The notes beneath the pieces were generated by a model that worked only from the letters and a program-made list of their open reading frames with translations, searched no databases and had not been told where the DNA came from. From Streptomyces sp. LUP30 (GTDB taxonomy: Bacteria; Actinomycetota; Actinomycetes; Streptomycetales; Streptomycetaceae), in contig NZ_MJAJ01000015.1 in the NCBI RefSeq assembly GCF_001746365.1, forward strand, positions 1 to 64,000: a stretch of 64,000 nt of DNA. Reading direction: 5' to 3'. Shown here piece by piece: positions 52,751 through 60,764 of this stretch. Within the stretch, counting starts at the first letter, position 1. Each line of letters opens with the position of its first letter. The translations under genes and the position numbers were made by a program.

Positions 52751-53506
52751 TCAGTGCCGGTAGAAGATGCGGTCCCGGTACTCCTCCATGATCCGGCCGT
52801 TCCAGTCGTGGCCGCCGTCGACGTTGCCCGAGCGCAGCAGCGGGGGCTCGATGCCTCGCTCGGCGAGGGCGCCGGCCGCGGTGGCCATGACGGCCTGCAG
52901 GAGGGCCGAGGTCACGACGGTGGAGGCGGGGGCGAAGGGCGCGGGGACGGTGTCGAGGGTGAGCTCGGCGTCGCCGACGGCGATCTTCGAGTCGAGGACG
53001 ACGTCGCAGTGGTCCTTCAGGAAGGTCCCGGTGACGTGGCGGGACGTGGTCTGCGTCGCGTACGCCACCGAGGTCACGCCGATGACCTTCACGCCCAGGG
53101 CGCGGGCGTTGAGGGCCATCTCCACGGGCAGGGCGTTGCGGCCGGAGAGCGACACGACGACGAGGGCGTCGCCCGCGCGCACGGGCGAGGTGTCGAGCAC
53201 GGCGCCCGCCAGGCCGTCGACACGCTCCAGGGCGGAGCCGAGAGTGGCGGGGACGACGTCCACGCCGACGACGCCGGGCACGGCGAGCAGGTTCATCAGG
53301 GCGAGGCCGCCCGCCCGGTAGACGACGTCCTGGGCGGCGAGCGAGGAGTGCCCGGCGCCGAAGGCGAAGAGGCGGCCGCCGGCGGCGACGGTGTCGGCGA
53401 GGAGCGTGCCGGCGGCGTCGACGGCCTCGGCCTCCTCGTCGCGGACCCGTTGCAGCAGGGCGACGGCGGCGTCGAAGAACTGGGCGGCGAGCTTGCGGTC
53501 GCTCAT
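52751..53506 (-). CDS. SIS-domain phosphosugar-binding protein (UPF0309-like)
   Basis: 251 aa from ATG at 53506. N-terminal helix QFFDAAVALLQRVRDEEAEA, then the SIS core GGRLFAFGAGHSSLAAQDVV and VVVSLSGRNALPVEMALNAR, the Ser-x-Ser phosphosugar-binding motif, and VIGVTSVAYATQ. The C-terminus is NVDGGHDWNGRIMEEYRDRI. Probably an amino-sugar-phosphate isomerase or a MurQ-related regulator in the cytoplasm. A DasR-like operator in its promoter region supports an aminosugar role. Divergent from dmdR1. Confidence 0.9.
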   Translation of the reverse strand: MSDRKLAAQFFDAAVALLQRVRDEEAEAVDAAGTLLADTVAAGGRLFAFGAGHSSLAAQDVVYRAGGLALMNLLAVPGVVGVDVVPATLGSALERVDGLAGAVLDTSPVRAGDALVVVSLSGRNALPVEMALNARALGVKVIGVTSVAYATQTTSRHVTGTFLKDHCDVVLDSKIAVGDAELTLDTVPAPFAPASTVVTSALLQAVMATAAGALAERGIEPPLLRSGNVDGGHDWNGRIMEEYRDRIFYRH

Positions 53507-53564
53507 CCGAGGGGCCCCTTTGCCGTGTCGGTGGAGGTGTCGGTGTCCGTGTCGCGGATCACCG

Positions 53565-53590
53565 TGCGGTCTGGACCAGTGCGCTGTCAA
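53565..53590 (-). promoter_or_regulatory. Candidate DasR-responsive element and promoter of the SIS gene
   Basis: The plus strand 53565-53580 reads TGCGGTCTGGACCAGT, 12 of 16 matching the DasR palindrome ACTGGTCTAGACCAGT, with the core GGTCTGGACC intact. On the minus strand a perfect -35 TTGACA lies at 53585-53590. The operator would sit in the promoter spacer; the -10 (CACGGT, 18-nt spacing) is weak. Confidence 0.55.
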
Positions 53591-53779
53591 TATGGCCGGC
53601 ACCGGTGGGACGGCACGGGCGCGTGATGCTCCGGGCGCGGCCGCCGGCGCCCGGACGCGACCTCCCCGTTCGGGCGGCGAGGCACGCTTGTCAGTGGTAT
53701 CCGGCAGAATTGGGTGCAGGGCCAGCGCACGCGCCGTAGAGCGGTCGAGCTTTTCGGCAGAGCTAATCGAGGGGCACGA

Positions 53780-54472
53780 ATGTCCGGACTGATCGACACC
53801 ACGGAGATGTATCTCCGCACCATCCTCGAGCTGGAGGAGGAAGGTGTGGTCCCCATGCGTGCCCGGATCGCCGAGCGGCTCGACCAGAGCGGCCCGACGG
53901 TCAGCCAGACGGTGGCGCGCATGGAGCGCGACGGACTGGTCGCGGTGGCCAGCGACCGCCACCTGGAGCTCACCGACGAGGGCCGTCGGCTGGCCACGCG
54001 CGTGATGCGCAAGCACCGTCTCGCCGAGTGTCTGCTCGTCGACGTGATCGGCCTGGAGTGGGAGCAGGTCCACGCGGAGGCGTGCCGCTGGGAGCACGTG
54101 ATGAGCGAGGCCGTGGAGCGGCGGGTGCTGGAGCTGCTGCGGCACCCGACCGAGTCGCCGTACGGCAACCCCATCCCGGGCCTGGAGGAGCTGGGCGAGA
54201 AGGACGGCGCGGACCCGTTCCTGGACGAGGGCATGGTCTCGCTGGCCGATCTCGACCCGGGCCTGGAGGGCAAGACGGTCGTCGTGCGCCGGATCGGCGA
54301 GCCGATCCAGACGGACGCGCAGCTGATGTACACGCTGCGTCGCGCGGGAGTGCAGCCGGGCTCGGTCGTGAGCGTGACGGAGTCGCCGGGCGGTGTGCTG
54401 GTGGGCAGCGGCGGCGAGGCCGCGGAGCTGGAGTCGGACGTCGCGTCGCACGTGTTCGTCGCGAAGAAGTAG
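53780..54472 (+). CDS. dmdR1: DtxR-family iron-dependent repressor
   Basis: 230 aa from ATG at 53780. Three DtxR domains: winged HTH (1-73, IAERLDQSGPTVSQTVARME), metal/dimer domain, and SH3-like domain (from about 150). All classical ligands are visible: Met10 (DTTEMYLRT), His79 region (RKHRLAE), and the C-x-x-E-H triad in EACRWEHVMSE. The length equals DmdR1 of S. coelicolor, the main repressor of siderophore genes. It represses iron-uptake genes when loaded with Fe(II). A long antiparallel frame, as described for dmdR1/adm, is also open here. Confidence 0.95.
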   Translation: MSGLIDTTEMYLRTILELEEEGVVPMRARIAERLDQSGPTVSQTVARMERDGLVAVASDRHLELTDEGRRLATRVMRKHRLAECLLVDVIGLEWEQVHAEACRWEHVMSEAVERRVLELLRHPTESPYGNPIPGLEELGEKDGADPFLDEGMVSLADLDPGLEGKTVVVRRIGEPIQTDAQLMYTLRRAGVQPGSVVSVTESPGGVLVGSGGEAAELESDVASHVFVAKK

Positions 54473-54977
54473 CGCCCGTCCGCCGCCCGTCGCCTGGCGT
54501 CCGCCGGCGTCGTCACGCTGAGTGTTGTTCAACTCCTGGTGCTGGCGGGGAAGTTGTGGCGCTTCGTCGATCTCGTCGAATCGGAGATTCCCTGCGTCGA
54601 ATCGCAGCGCGCCGACGCTTGTCGTGCCAGGCTGTCGCGTGAGGCATATGACCTGAGGGGGCGGGGATGGTGTGCCGCGGAGCAAGGGAGGGCCCCGACG
54701 CCGTGCGGCGCCGGGGCCTGTCCTCCCCTGTGTCGACCCGGAGCCCCGAGCTCTCAGGGTCGTTCCCCTCGGACCGTTTTCCCCGAGCGGTCCGCCTCCC
54801 GCTGAAGATCTCCCCTCGGCGGAGGGGATCATTCCTTGAGAGTGGTCACTCGAACGAGGGGTGTTGTGCGCGGAGAGTGCAATTCTCGAAAGAGCATTCG
54901 ATAGCCTGCAGGTGATCGAAGGCGGTACGGAGCATCGGCAGCGCAGCGGTACGACGGCTAGGGGGGTGCCAGGACCT
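54473..54977 (+). other. 500-bp structured intergenic region before the alpha/beta hydrolase
   Basis: No convincing protein gene. It contains a GC hairpin at 54691-54718, then CGGACCG/CGGTCCG (54770-54794) and TCCCCTC/GAGGGGA (54811-54827). An AT-richer stretch follows with TTGAGAG (about 54836) and CGATAGCCT (about 54898) as possible promoter parts. A small plus-strand frame at 54667-54915 looks like composition noise. Confidence 0.5.
54691..54718 (+). terminator. Terminator-like hairpin after dmdR1
   Basis: GGCCCCG-A-CGCC, loop GTGC, GGCG-C-CGGGGCC, followed by TGTCCTCCCC. It is 220 bp past the dmdR1 stop, so it may instead belong to a leader or small RNA. Confidence 0.55.
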
Positions 54978-55883
54978 ATGGCGCGACGCATCGACGTGAC
55001 CGGGGCGGGCGGCGTACGTCTGGCGGCCTGGGAGTTCGGGGACCCGCCCAAGGGGATCCCGGCGCAGTCCTCCGGCGGGCGGCAGCGGCCGGCGGAGCCC
55101 GAGCGGACCTCCGGGGTCCTGTTACTGCACGGCCTGATGGGCCGTGCCTCGCACTGGGCGTCCACCGCCCGCTGGCTCTCCGAGCGGCACCGGGCGGTCG
55201 CCCTCGACCAGCGCGGCCACGGGCAGAGCGAGAAGCCGCCGCAGGCCGCGTTCACCCGCGAGGCCTACGTCGAGGACGCGGAGGCCGCCCTCGAACAGCT
55301 CGGGCTCGCCCCGGCCGTCCTCATCGGGCACGCCATGGGCGCGCTCACCGCGTGGCAGCTCGCCGCGAAACGCCCCGACCTGGTGCGCGGTCTGGTCGTC
55401 TGCGACATGCGGGCCTCGGCGCTCGGAGCGGCCTCGCAACGCGAGTGGGCCGACTGGTTCACGTCCTGGCCGCTGCCCTTCGCCACCCTCGCCGACGTCC
55501 GCAAGTGGTTCGGCGAGGACGACCCCTGGGTGGAGCGGCCGAACCCCTCCCGGGGCGAGTTCTACGCCGAGGCGATGCACGAGTCGCCGGACGGCTGGCG
55601 TCCCGTCTTCGAGCCCGAGCAGATGCTCAAGTCCCGTGAGACCTGGGTCTACGACGCGCACTGGGAGGAACTCGCCCAGGTCCGGTGCCCGGCCCTGGTG
55701 GTGCGCGGCCTGGACGGCGAACTGGGCCGGGCCGAGGCCCAGGAGATGGTGCGCGTCCTGCCGCGCGGCGAGTACGCCGAGGTCGCCGACGCCGGGCACC
55801 TCGTCCACTACGACCAGCCGGAGGGCTGGCGTACGGCGATCGAGGCCTTCCTGGACACCGTGCTCAGCCCCGACGCCCCCTGA
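54978..55883 (+). CDS. Alpha/beta-hydrolase-fold protein lacking the nucleophile; contains a TTA codon
   Basis: 301 aa from ATG at 54978 (AGGA 4 nt upstream; GTG at 54966 possible). Fold landmarks: VLLLHGLMGRASHW, DQRGHGQSEKP, and acid/His regions VRGLDGELG and VADAGHLVHYDQP. At the nucleophile elbow, where active enzymes have G-H-S-M-G, this protein reads IGHAMGALTAW: the serine codon is GCC (Ala). Codon 49 is TTA (55122-55124), the rare leucine codon read by bldA tRNA, implying developmental control. It may be a ligand-binding pseudoenzyme. Confidence 0.88.
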   Translation: MARRIDVTGAGGVRLAAWEFGDPPKGIPAQSSGGRQRPAEPERTSGVLLLHGLMGRASHWASTARWLSERHRAVALDQRGHGQSEKPPQAAFTREAYVEDAEAALEQLGLAPAVLIGHAMGALTAWQLAAKRPDLVRGLVVCDMRASALGAASQREWADWFTSWPLPFATLADVRKWFGEDDPWVERPNPSRGEFYAEAMHESPDGWRPVFEPEQMLKSRETWVYDAHWEELAQVRCPALVVRGLDGELGRAEAQEMVRVLPRGEYAEVADAGHLVHYDQPEGWRTAIEAFLDTVLSPDAP

Positions 55884-58343: not shown

Positions 58344-58997
58344 CTACCGATCCCGCCCGCACGCGTAGGCGAGCGGCGAGATCAACTCCTCGGCGTCCGG
58401 CAGCCACCGGTTCGCGGCGGTCGGCCGGCAGGCCCACTGCACGGCCCCCCTGGACCCGAACCGGGTGGGCGGCGCGGCCACGTACGTGCCCTCGCCGAGC
58501 GTCACGAGATCGAGGGCGCCCAACGACCAGCCCAGTTTGCGCACCAGGTCCGGCAGCTTCGCCGACGCGCCCGGCAGCACGAAGAACTGCATGCGCCGGT
58601 CCGGCGTCAGGGTCACCGGTCCGAGCGTCAGTTCCATGCGCTCCATCCGGGCCAGGGCGAGAAACCCGGCCGTCTCCGGCACGGAGATCGCGTCGAACGT
58701 GCGCCCGGTCGGCAGCAGGATCGAGGCGGTCGGCTGCTTCTGCCACATCCGGCGTGCGACCGTCGCACTGCCGGTGGCCTGTGTCGCCCAGTCCGGGCGG
58801 GCGGGGTGCGCCCCAGGGGCGGCACACGCACCGTCGCCGCAGGAGCAGAGCTGCACCCCGTCGACGGCTTCCAGCCAGGTGCCGGGGAACACGTCCCAAT
58901 GACGTTCCTCGGCGTAGCGAACAGCGGTCTCGAGCAGCGATTCCCCGCGCTGCTTCGGGATTTGAGTGGCTTCGGCGCCCGCGATGGTCTCTTCCAC
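58344..58997 (-). CDS. Stand-alone prim-pol (bifunctional primase/polymerase N-terminal) domain protein
   Basis: 217 aa from GTG at 58997; GTG at 59006 and 59021 are alternatives, and TAGAGT just upstream could be a -10 giving a leaderless mRNA. RGESLLETAVRYAEERHWDV and CSCGDGACAAPGAHPARPDW are the opening of the actinobacterial prim-pol family (Cys cluster, G-x-H-P). The later part lacks the D-x-D catalytic acids I would expect (only AISVPETAGFLAL), so polymerase activity is doubtful. It may be a DNA-binding relic of the fold. Upstream of the ABC ATPase on the same strand. Confidence 0.8.
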   Translation of the reverse strand: MEETIAGAEATQIPKQRGESLLETAVRYAEERHWDVFPGTWLEAVDGVQLCSCGDGACAAPGAHPARPDWATQATGSATVARRMWQKQPTASILLPTGRTFDAISVPETAGFLALARMERMELTLGPVTLTPDRRMQFFVLPGASAKLPDLVRKLGWSLGALDLVTLGEGTYVAAPPTRFGSRGAVQWACRPTAANRWLPDAEELISPLAYACGRDR

Positions 58998-59175
58998 GAT
59001 GAACACAACTCTAGCGGTCACCAGGGGTTACGCCCGCCCGAATGCGCGGGGGAGGAGCATCGATTCGGCGTCCGGGGCGCATGGGTGCATGGGCGGGGGC
59101 GCGCGGGAGGAACGGGCGCGGGAACGGGTAACCAGATAGCGGGGGTGACTTCCGCCGGTATCCCGGCATTCTCCG

Positions 59176-59235
59176 CATTGCCCGTCATTGCTCTTCATTG
59201 CCCGTCAATGCTCGGTATTACCCGGCAACCATCAG
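59176..59235 (+). repeat. Three 20-bp direct repeats upstream of the NsdA-like regulator
   Basis: CATTGCCCGTCATTGCTCTT, CATTGCCCGTCAATGCTCGG and the diverged TATTACCCGGCAACCATCAG follow head-to-tail in an AT-richer stretch about 145-200 bp before the ATG at 59379. A two-helical-turn period suits cooperative protein binding on one DNA face. Confidence 0.7.
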
Positions 59236-59378
59236 CAATCCTCACATGCCTCGCATTTTCGGTCGATCCGTGGGGCATTGATCTGCTCGGCCGGAACTTT
59301 TCGGTGGAAGACACGTCAACTCGGTGTGTGGGCGGGCACCCGCCGCCCCGGTCACCGCAGCCACAGGGGGTAGTGCCC

Positions 59379-60764
59379 ATGGCCGCAAGGCCGCTAGTCG
59401 CGCGGCAGCCGAACGAACGGCTGCAGGCGCTCATCCAGGAGGCGGGGTGCTCGAACGCCGGGCTCGCCCGCCGCGTCAACATGTGCGGCGCCGAGCACGG
59501 TCTCGACCTGCGCTACGACAAGACGTCCGTGGCCCGTTGGCTGCGCGGACAGCAGCCGCGTGGACGCGCTCCGGCGATCATCGCGGAGGCGCTGGGCCGC
59601 AAGCTCGGCCGGACGGTCACCATCGACGAGATCGGCATGGCCAACGGCAAGAACCTCGCGTCGGGCGTGGGTCTGCAGTTCTCGCCGACGGTGCTGGGGG
59701 CCATCGAGCAGGTCTGCGAACTGTGGCGCAGCGACGTGGGCCGGCGCGACTTCCTGTCGGGCTCGTCCGTGGCCGCCTCGGCTCTGGTCGAGCCGAGCCG
59801 CGACTGGCTGATCTCCTCGCCCGACGCCCAGGTGGCGCGGTCTGCGGGCCCCCGGGTGGGCCCGTCCGACGTGGCGGCCGTCAAGGCGATGACGCAGGCG
59901 CTGGTCGACCTCGACCACCAGTACGGCAGCGGGCATGTGCGCCCGGTCGTCGTGCACTACCTCAACAGCGTCGTCTCGGGCCTGCTCGCCGGCTCCTACC
60001 GGGAGGCGGTGGGACGCGAACTCTTCGCGGCCGTCGCCCGCTTGACGGAGCTCGCCGGGTACATGGCCGTCGACACCGGTCAACCCGGCCTCGCCCAGCG
60101 CTACTACATCCAGGCGCTGCGGCTGGCCCAGGCGGCCGGCGACCGCGGGTACGGCGGCTACGTCCTCGCCGCCTCCATGAGCCACCTCGCCGCCCAGCTC
60201 GGCAACCCGCGCGAGATCGCCCAGTTGGCGCGGGCGGCGCAGGAGGGAGCGCGCGGGCGGGTGACCCCGCGCGCGGAGGCGATGTTCCTCGCGGCGGAGG
60301 CGCGCGGGCACGCCCTGCTGGGCGACGCCCGGGGCGCGCAGGCGGCTTCCGGGCGCGCGGTGTCGGCGCTGGAGGCGGCGGACCCGGCCGCCGGGGACGA
60401 CCCGGCCTGGATCGCGCACTTCGACGAGGCCTACCTGGCCGACGAGTTGGCGCACTGCCACCGCGACCTGGGCCAGGCCGAGGCGGCCGCGCGCTGCGCC
60501 GAGCAGTCGCTGGCCGGACATCCGCCGAGCCGTGCCCGGCGGCGCGCGATCGGGTACGTCCTGCTGGCGACCGCGCAGGTGCAGCAGCGCGAGATCGAGC
60601 AGGCCTGCAACACCGGCCTGAAAGCGGTCGAGTTGCTGGGGACGCTCCGCTCCAACCGGGGCGCGGAGTACCTGGAGGACCTCCAGCAGCGGCTGGAGCC
60701 GTTCCGTGAGGAGTCGGTGGTGCGGGAGTTCGGGGCGCGGCTGGAGTTGCAGACCGCGGCGTGA
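59379..60764 (+). CDS. NsdA-like regulator with HTH-type N-terminus and TPR-like repeats
   Basis: 461 aa from ATG at 59379 (AGGGGG 8 nt upstream). The N-terminal domain (about 8-75: RLQALIQEAGCSNAGLARRV, TSVARWLRGQQPRGRAPAII) is the XRE-like module of Streptomyces NsdA-type developmental regulators. The remaining 300 residues are alpha-helical TPR-like repeats (QRYYIQALRLAQAAGDRGYG, RAEAMFLAAEARGHALLGDA, CHRDLGQAEAAARCAEQSLA). NsdA itself represses sporulation and antibiotic production; this is a paralogue-type protein, so the exact role is inferred. Confidence 0.85.
   Translation: MAARPLVARQPNERLQALIQEAGCSNAGLARRVNMCGAEHGLDLRYDKTSVARWLRGQQPRGRAPAIIAEALGRKLGRTVTIDEIGMANGKNLASGVGLQFSPTVLGAIEQVCELWRSDVGRRDFLSGSSVAASALVEPSRDWLISSPDAQVARSAGPRVGPSDVAAVKAMTQALVDLDHQYGSGHVRPVVVHYLNSVVSGLLAGSYREAVGRELFAAVARLTELAGYMAVDTGQPGLAQRYYIQALRLAQAAGDRGYGGYVLAASMSHLAAQLGNPREIAQLARAAQEGARGRVTPRAEAMFLAAEARGHALLGDARGAQAASGRAVSALEAADPAAGDDPAWIAHFDEAYLADELAHCHRDLGQAEAAARCAEQSLAGHPPSRARRRAIGYVLLATAQVQQREIEQACNTGLKAVELLGTLRSNRGAEYLEDLQQRLEPFREESVVREFGARLELQTAA

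Follow-up and report, generated by a model that had tools for sequence, protein, structure and literature searches.

The best-supported reading of the gene at 54978-55883 of the window (the whole 64,000-nucleotide stretch of Streptomyces sp. LUP30 DNA analysed here) is that it encodes a conserved alpha/beta-hydrolase-fold protein that would work independently of a nucleophile and is probably developmentally timed. Across its orthologues the residue at the nucleophile elbow has been exchanged repeatedly among Ser, Ala and Gly amid fixed surroundings, and the conserved function is probably something other than ordinary cleavage. The preliminary description of this DNA held ordinary ester hydrolysis to be impossible for the window protein; our results extend that statement to the family, whose conserved function cannot be ordinary hydrolysis through an acyl-enzyme. 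The exchangeable nucleophile points to either His-Asp general-base chemistry or ligand sensing, and routine esterase screens would therefore be a poor guide to function.

Identity, neighbourhood and distribution of the gene

Three genes define the locus:

54978..55883, + strand: coding sequence of 301 amino acids with an alpha/beta-hydrolase fold, very probably the SCO4395 orthologue (open reading frame and Pfam matches; dmdR1 and nagS orthologues flanking, PMC12680351)
53780..54472, + strand: orthologue of dmdR1/desR, DtxR-type iron repressor, SCO4394 (gene order, PMC12680351)
52751..53506, - strand: orthologue of nagS, SIS domain, SCO4393 (gene order, PMC12680351)

Pfam family PF00561 covers residues 47-280 of the protein (E 1.1e-25), and PF12697 and PF12146 also match well over their cut-offs. 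On these whole-domain profile matches the product is a member of the alpha/beta-hydrolase fold superfamily, and PF00561 and PF12697 bear out the earlier remark that the fold outside the elbow is intact. In NCBIfam, PcaD, MenH and similar hydrolases matched only below threshold, far under every equivalog cut-off, so no named function can be attached to the product. The divergent arrangement of nagS (SCO4393) beside dmdR1 (SCO4394) has been described throughout the Streptomycetaceae, with His53 and Arg64 as critical residues of nagS (PMC12680351), and the SIS protein of the window has both. Since our gene is the next one after dmdR1, in the order nagS, dmdR1/desR, 54978-55883 with nagS divergent, it is very probably the direct orthologue of S. 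coelicolor SCO4395, which has the same two neighbours and a frequently conserved TTA codon. The divergent pair directly upstream of the TTA gene (52751-54472) thus combines a GlcNAc-6P dehydratase with an iron repressor, and its position makes a link between SCO4395 and the GlcNAc/iron developmental checkpoint directly testable.

The gene is present in 289 of 295 Streptomyces genomes. Several of the 17 Streptomycetaceae genera sampled have a full-length orthologue, and in others the nearest proteins are paralogues with identities no higher than about 40%; a class-level sample gave no orthologue outside the genus Streptomyces. The best explanation is that the SCO4395-type protein is specific to the Streptomycetaceae. 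The 196 orthologues on which the counts below are based are weighted towards close relatives and include species sampled from both of the genome collections. A DmdR1 gene lies upstream in the same direction for 142/142 orthologues with Ala at the elbow, 35/42 with Ser and 10/11 with Gly, some of these loci being too short to show it; in one Gly-elbow locus (L191) it is present and inverted. In another genus of the family, the orthologue L194 (G301:C44:286830-287755) gives a match divided between two overlapping stretches that lie in different frames, and is apparently frame-disrupted.

The nucleophile elbow

55332..55334, + strand: Ala119 (codon GCC), at the nucleophile elbow

The elbow reads V-L-I-G117-H118-A119-M120-G121-A, which confirms the G-H-A-M-G reported from the sequence. 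Of the 196 orthologues, 142 have Ala here, 42 have Ser and 11 have Gly, and one is unreadable. In a genus-wide motif scan, whose pattern requires a Met following the elbow residue and therefore overlooks some orthologues, the 150 matches listed comprise 98 Ala, 48 Ser and 4 Gly. The share of orthologues with Ser thus lies between roughly a fifth and a third. A serine hydrolase would be expected to have Ser, Cys or Asp at this position, which is Ala in the window and any of Ala, Ser and Gly in the orthologues. The earlier idea of a pseudoenzyme with Ala was right in that the Ala is real and lineage-wide; it understated the case because Ala is not universal and the nucleophile position is interchangeable. 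The orthologues do not all carry Ser, as they would if the Ala were a sequencing error or a strain mutation, and that explanation is ruled out with near certainty by the 142 orthologue records with Ala and the 133 with TTA at codon 49, although some species contribute a record from each of the two collections.

A maximum-likelihood tree built from the window protein and 84 non-redundant orthologues, with the elbow and TTA columns excluded, requires about 15 parsimony changes at the elbow, and its well-supported branches force at least five for the Ser or Ala label. Position 119 stands at the 71st percentile of change among alignment positions, and the residue switches even between close relatives such as L163/L164 and L231/L186. 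In all tested pairs, including Ala/Ser, Ala/Gly and Ser/Gly neighbours, dN/dS was about 0.1-0.3, and outside the elbow residue the protein is under purifying selection. The frequent elbow changes at such dN/dS values indicate that the protein is constrained and that the elbow side chain is unconstrained beyond being small. We found no earlier report of an interchangeable elbow nucleophile in open-licence papers, which is not proof of novelty.

One alternative is that catalysis has become superfluous and the gene is slowly decaying under relaxed constraint. Its absence from 6 of the 295 Streptomyces genomes and the single disrupted copy in another genus would fit, but the dN/dS values, the 48 invariant columns of the orthologue alignment and the conserved promoter palindrome described below make decay very improbable. 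A second alternative is that the ancestor was a Ser hydrolase, that the Ser lineages are still active and that the Ala and Gly lineages were separately recruited to other functions. The Streptomyces paralogues (e.g. L195 and L203), which resemble the orthologues at about 40% identity in fold and in the His and Asp/Glu positions, have Ser at the elbow in 35 of 38 cases, and the Ser codons TCC and TCG are one step from Ala. The paralogues nevertheless differ in a GQSLG or GHSMG elbow and in having the palindrome upstream in 0/38 cases. The switches between the close relatives named above left pocket, promoter box and synteny unchanged, with similar dN/dS across them, so we consider separate recruitment unlikely.

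Remaining active-site machinery

Two further residues are central to the proposed function:

55404..55406, + strand: Asp143, probable acid after strand beta-6 (Asp or Glu in all Ala, Ser and Gly orthologues tallied)
55797..55799, + strand: His274, catalytic-base position (one true substitution among orthologues)

On the tree G117, H118, G121, L123, W126, W160, W164, R243 and R251 show no change and His274 shows one, and the pocket Trp residues are invariant among orthologues. The exceptions at His274 are L190, with Pro, and one row that is an alignment gap. Asp246 on beta-7 was considered as the triad acid and is disfavoured because it varies among Asp, Glu, Asn, Ala, Gln and Gly, while position 143 stays Asp or Glu. 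Glu at 143 occurs in 6 of the 11 Gly-elbow orthologues (L232, L137, L138, L139, L191 and L192) versus 2/184 others, a pairing that could possibly reflect compensation or shared ancestry.

These residues bear on whether the protein is an enzyme at all. It could be a receptor or other ligand-binding protein without catalytic activity, sensing a small molecule through its hydrolase pocket, the dyad being kept for hydrogen bonds to the ligand. A dispensable nucleophile, the invariant pocket Trp residues and the position next to a developmental/iron locus (PMC12680351) are all compatible with such a pseudoenzyme, and the strongest single hint of a binding role is L190 (G305:C1), a full-length orthologue that has lost both active-site residues, having a Gly elbow and a Pro where His274 would be. 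On the other side, His274 and Asp/Glu143 are kept nearly everywhere, more strictly than one would expect of a protein that does no more than bind a ligand, and we regard a purely binding function as possible but less likely than not. An enzyme acting independently of the nucleophile is somewhat likelier than a pure receptor because the His-Asp dyad is kept.

Comparison with cofactor-free dioxygenases and proposed function

The cofactor-free 2,4-dioxygenases HOD and AqdC share with the SCO4395-type protein the alpha/beta-hydrolase fold, a dyad of His and a post-beta-6 Asp, and natural Ser/Ala variation at the elbow. In our alignment to HOD, Asp143 corresponds to Asp126, His274 to His251 and elbow residue 119 to Ser101. 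The S101A variant of HOD has a raised Km and keeps its kcat, so that Ser is dispensable, and Ala occurs naturally at the elbow of HOD-related enzymes (PMC10548524; PMC3961685); we also see Ala in two plasmid-borne HOD relatives by alignment. The window protein thus has the HOD-type arrangement of a His-Asp dyad, an Asp after beta-6 and a dispensable elbow, a likeness of arrangement only and not of activity. In contrast, HOD reaches only 21 bits with the SCO4395 family profile, compared with 91 for AAMSH and 135-221 for the paralogues, most of which bear Ser, and the HOD-type G-W-C-H segment is absent from the SCO4395 family. Membership of the HOD family is ruled out by these scores, and because of the 21 bits, which also count against a HOD-like enzyme, we use HOD as a mechanistic analogy only. 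No quinolone pathway genes were found beside the gene. The profile's top match among solved structures, at 91.8 bits, is AAMSH (alpha-(N-acetylaminomethylene)succinic acid hydrolase, PDB 3kxp), which has an Asp aligned at the post-beta-6 position; it differs in having a Ser elbow, in being an amidohydrolase and in its distant sequence.

By analogy with HOD we propose, with confidence that stops a little short of even, that the SCO4395-type protein is a His-Asp general-base enzyme that makes no use of the elbow side chain. The His274-Asp143 dyad would act as general base on a small ligand in the Trp-rich pocket, in chemistry that is either lyase-like or resembles that of HOD and other cofactor-free dioxygenases. 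The conserved function would then be independent of the elbow side chain, residue 119 would merely shape the pocket, and Ser, Ala and Gly would for that reason be interchangeable. In favour of the general-base enzyme we count the elbow exchange amid unchanged residues and low dN/dS, the alignment of the dyad with that of HOD, the dispensable and naturally variable Ser of HOD-type enzymes, the synteny shared by Ala, Ser and Gly lineages and the placement of the TTA codon; against it stand L190 and the Glu143 of Gly-elbow orthologues. More speculatively, these proteins may form an unrecognised genus-wide class of nucleophile-independent enzymes with an alpha/beta-hydrolase fold, perhaps cofactor-free oxygenases or lyases, that handle a developmental or iron/GlcNAc-linked metabolite, are made only in the presence of bldA tRNA and have their own operator.

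The TTA codon

55122..55124, + strand: TTA codon 49, within the L48-L49-L50-H51-G52 motif (TTA at codon 49 in 133 and at codon 48 in 13 of 196 orthologues)

The preliminary description also pointed out a TTA codon in this gene, and we confirm it as the single one in frame. It noticed no other TTA in any coding frame of the window, which is supported, without being proven, by a GC-frame gene call that is heuristic and has gaps; by the same call the one other in-frame TTA falls in what is probably an extension, on the upstream side, of the open reading frame at 58806-60764. Conservation of the codon, like that of Ala119, is wide and not universal: the 196 orthologues have 151 TTA among 5142 Leu codons, 146 of them at codons 48/49 and 5 elsewhere, a concentration that exceeds chance, and the genus-wide scan gave TTA at 48 or 49 in 107 of the 150 matches listed. 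On the tree, presence of TTA at 48/49 needs 7 changes, and its placement at 48 or 49 among carriers needs 2. No association between elbow residue and TTA was detected, among few independent pairs.

SCO4395 belongs to a small set of genes in which a TTA codon has been retained across Streptomyces. This conservation is already known from published work, as SCO4395 appears in the TTA table (Table 2) of PMC4255298 with TTA in 12/14 genomes. The label given in that table, 'Hydroxylase', may be a slip, since the sequence has an alpha/beta-hydrolase fold. A position-conserved TTA was also reported in an alpha/beta hydrolase, FQ762_RS22740 (PMC10327506), probably the SCO4395 orthologue. In the parts consulted, these two papers discuss neither the elbow residue nor the operator. 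The literal string 'SCO4395' was not found in open-licence papers, and the main text of the bldA proteomics study (PMC2000904) does not mention 4395. The retention of TTA at one or other of two neighbouring codons in many species makes a bldA link plausible, and this rare, 'late' codon suggests that expression is probably timed through the bldA tRNA.

The upstream promoter signature

Three elements lie upstream of the gene:

54886..54901, + strand: palindrome TCGAAAGAGCATTCGA, putative operator (TCGAA-N6-TTCGA in 185/196 orthologues)
54902..54907, + strand: TAGCCT, putative -10 element adjoining the palindrome on its 3' side
54856..54866, + strand: second conserved block GAGGGGTGTTG, whose conserved columns lie 19-29 bp away on the 5' side of the palindrome

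The palindrome TCGAA-N6-TTCGA was found upstream of 136/142 Ala, 41/42 Ser and 8/11 Gly orthologues, with most others one base off. The TA...T of the putative -10 is invariant in 76 of 76 palindrome-containing upstream regions after removal of redundancy; a sigma-70-type promoter scan gave no match. A palindrome just before a putative -10 would most naturally be read as a repressor site, and expression may be set by this dedicated promoter operator and probably also by the bldA tRNA through the TTA codon. The palindrome resembles the LexA box (tCGAAC-N4-GNNCGa) and departs from it at position 6, which is T in 148, A in 26 and C in 7 of the 185 sequences, while the listed S. venezuelae LexA boxes have C there almost throughout; a canonical LexA box is therefore disfavoured. 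G003, the sole Streptomyces without the gene among nine genomes searched, gave no match to the extended motif. Exact matches in the nine lie at the SCO4395-type gene only, and the signature at 54856-54907, made up of GAGGGGTGTTG, the palindrome and the putative -10, is conserved across orthologues and nearly unique in each genome.
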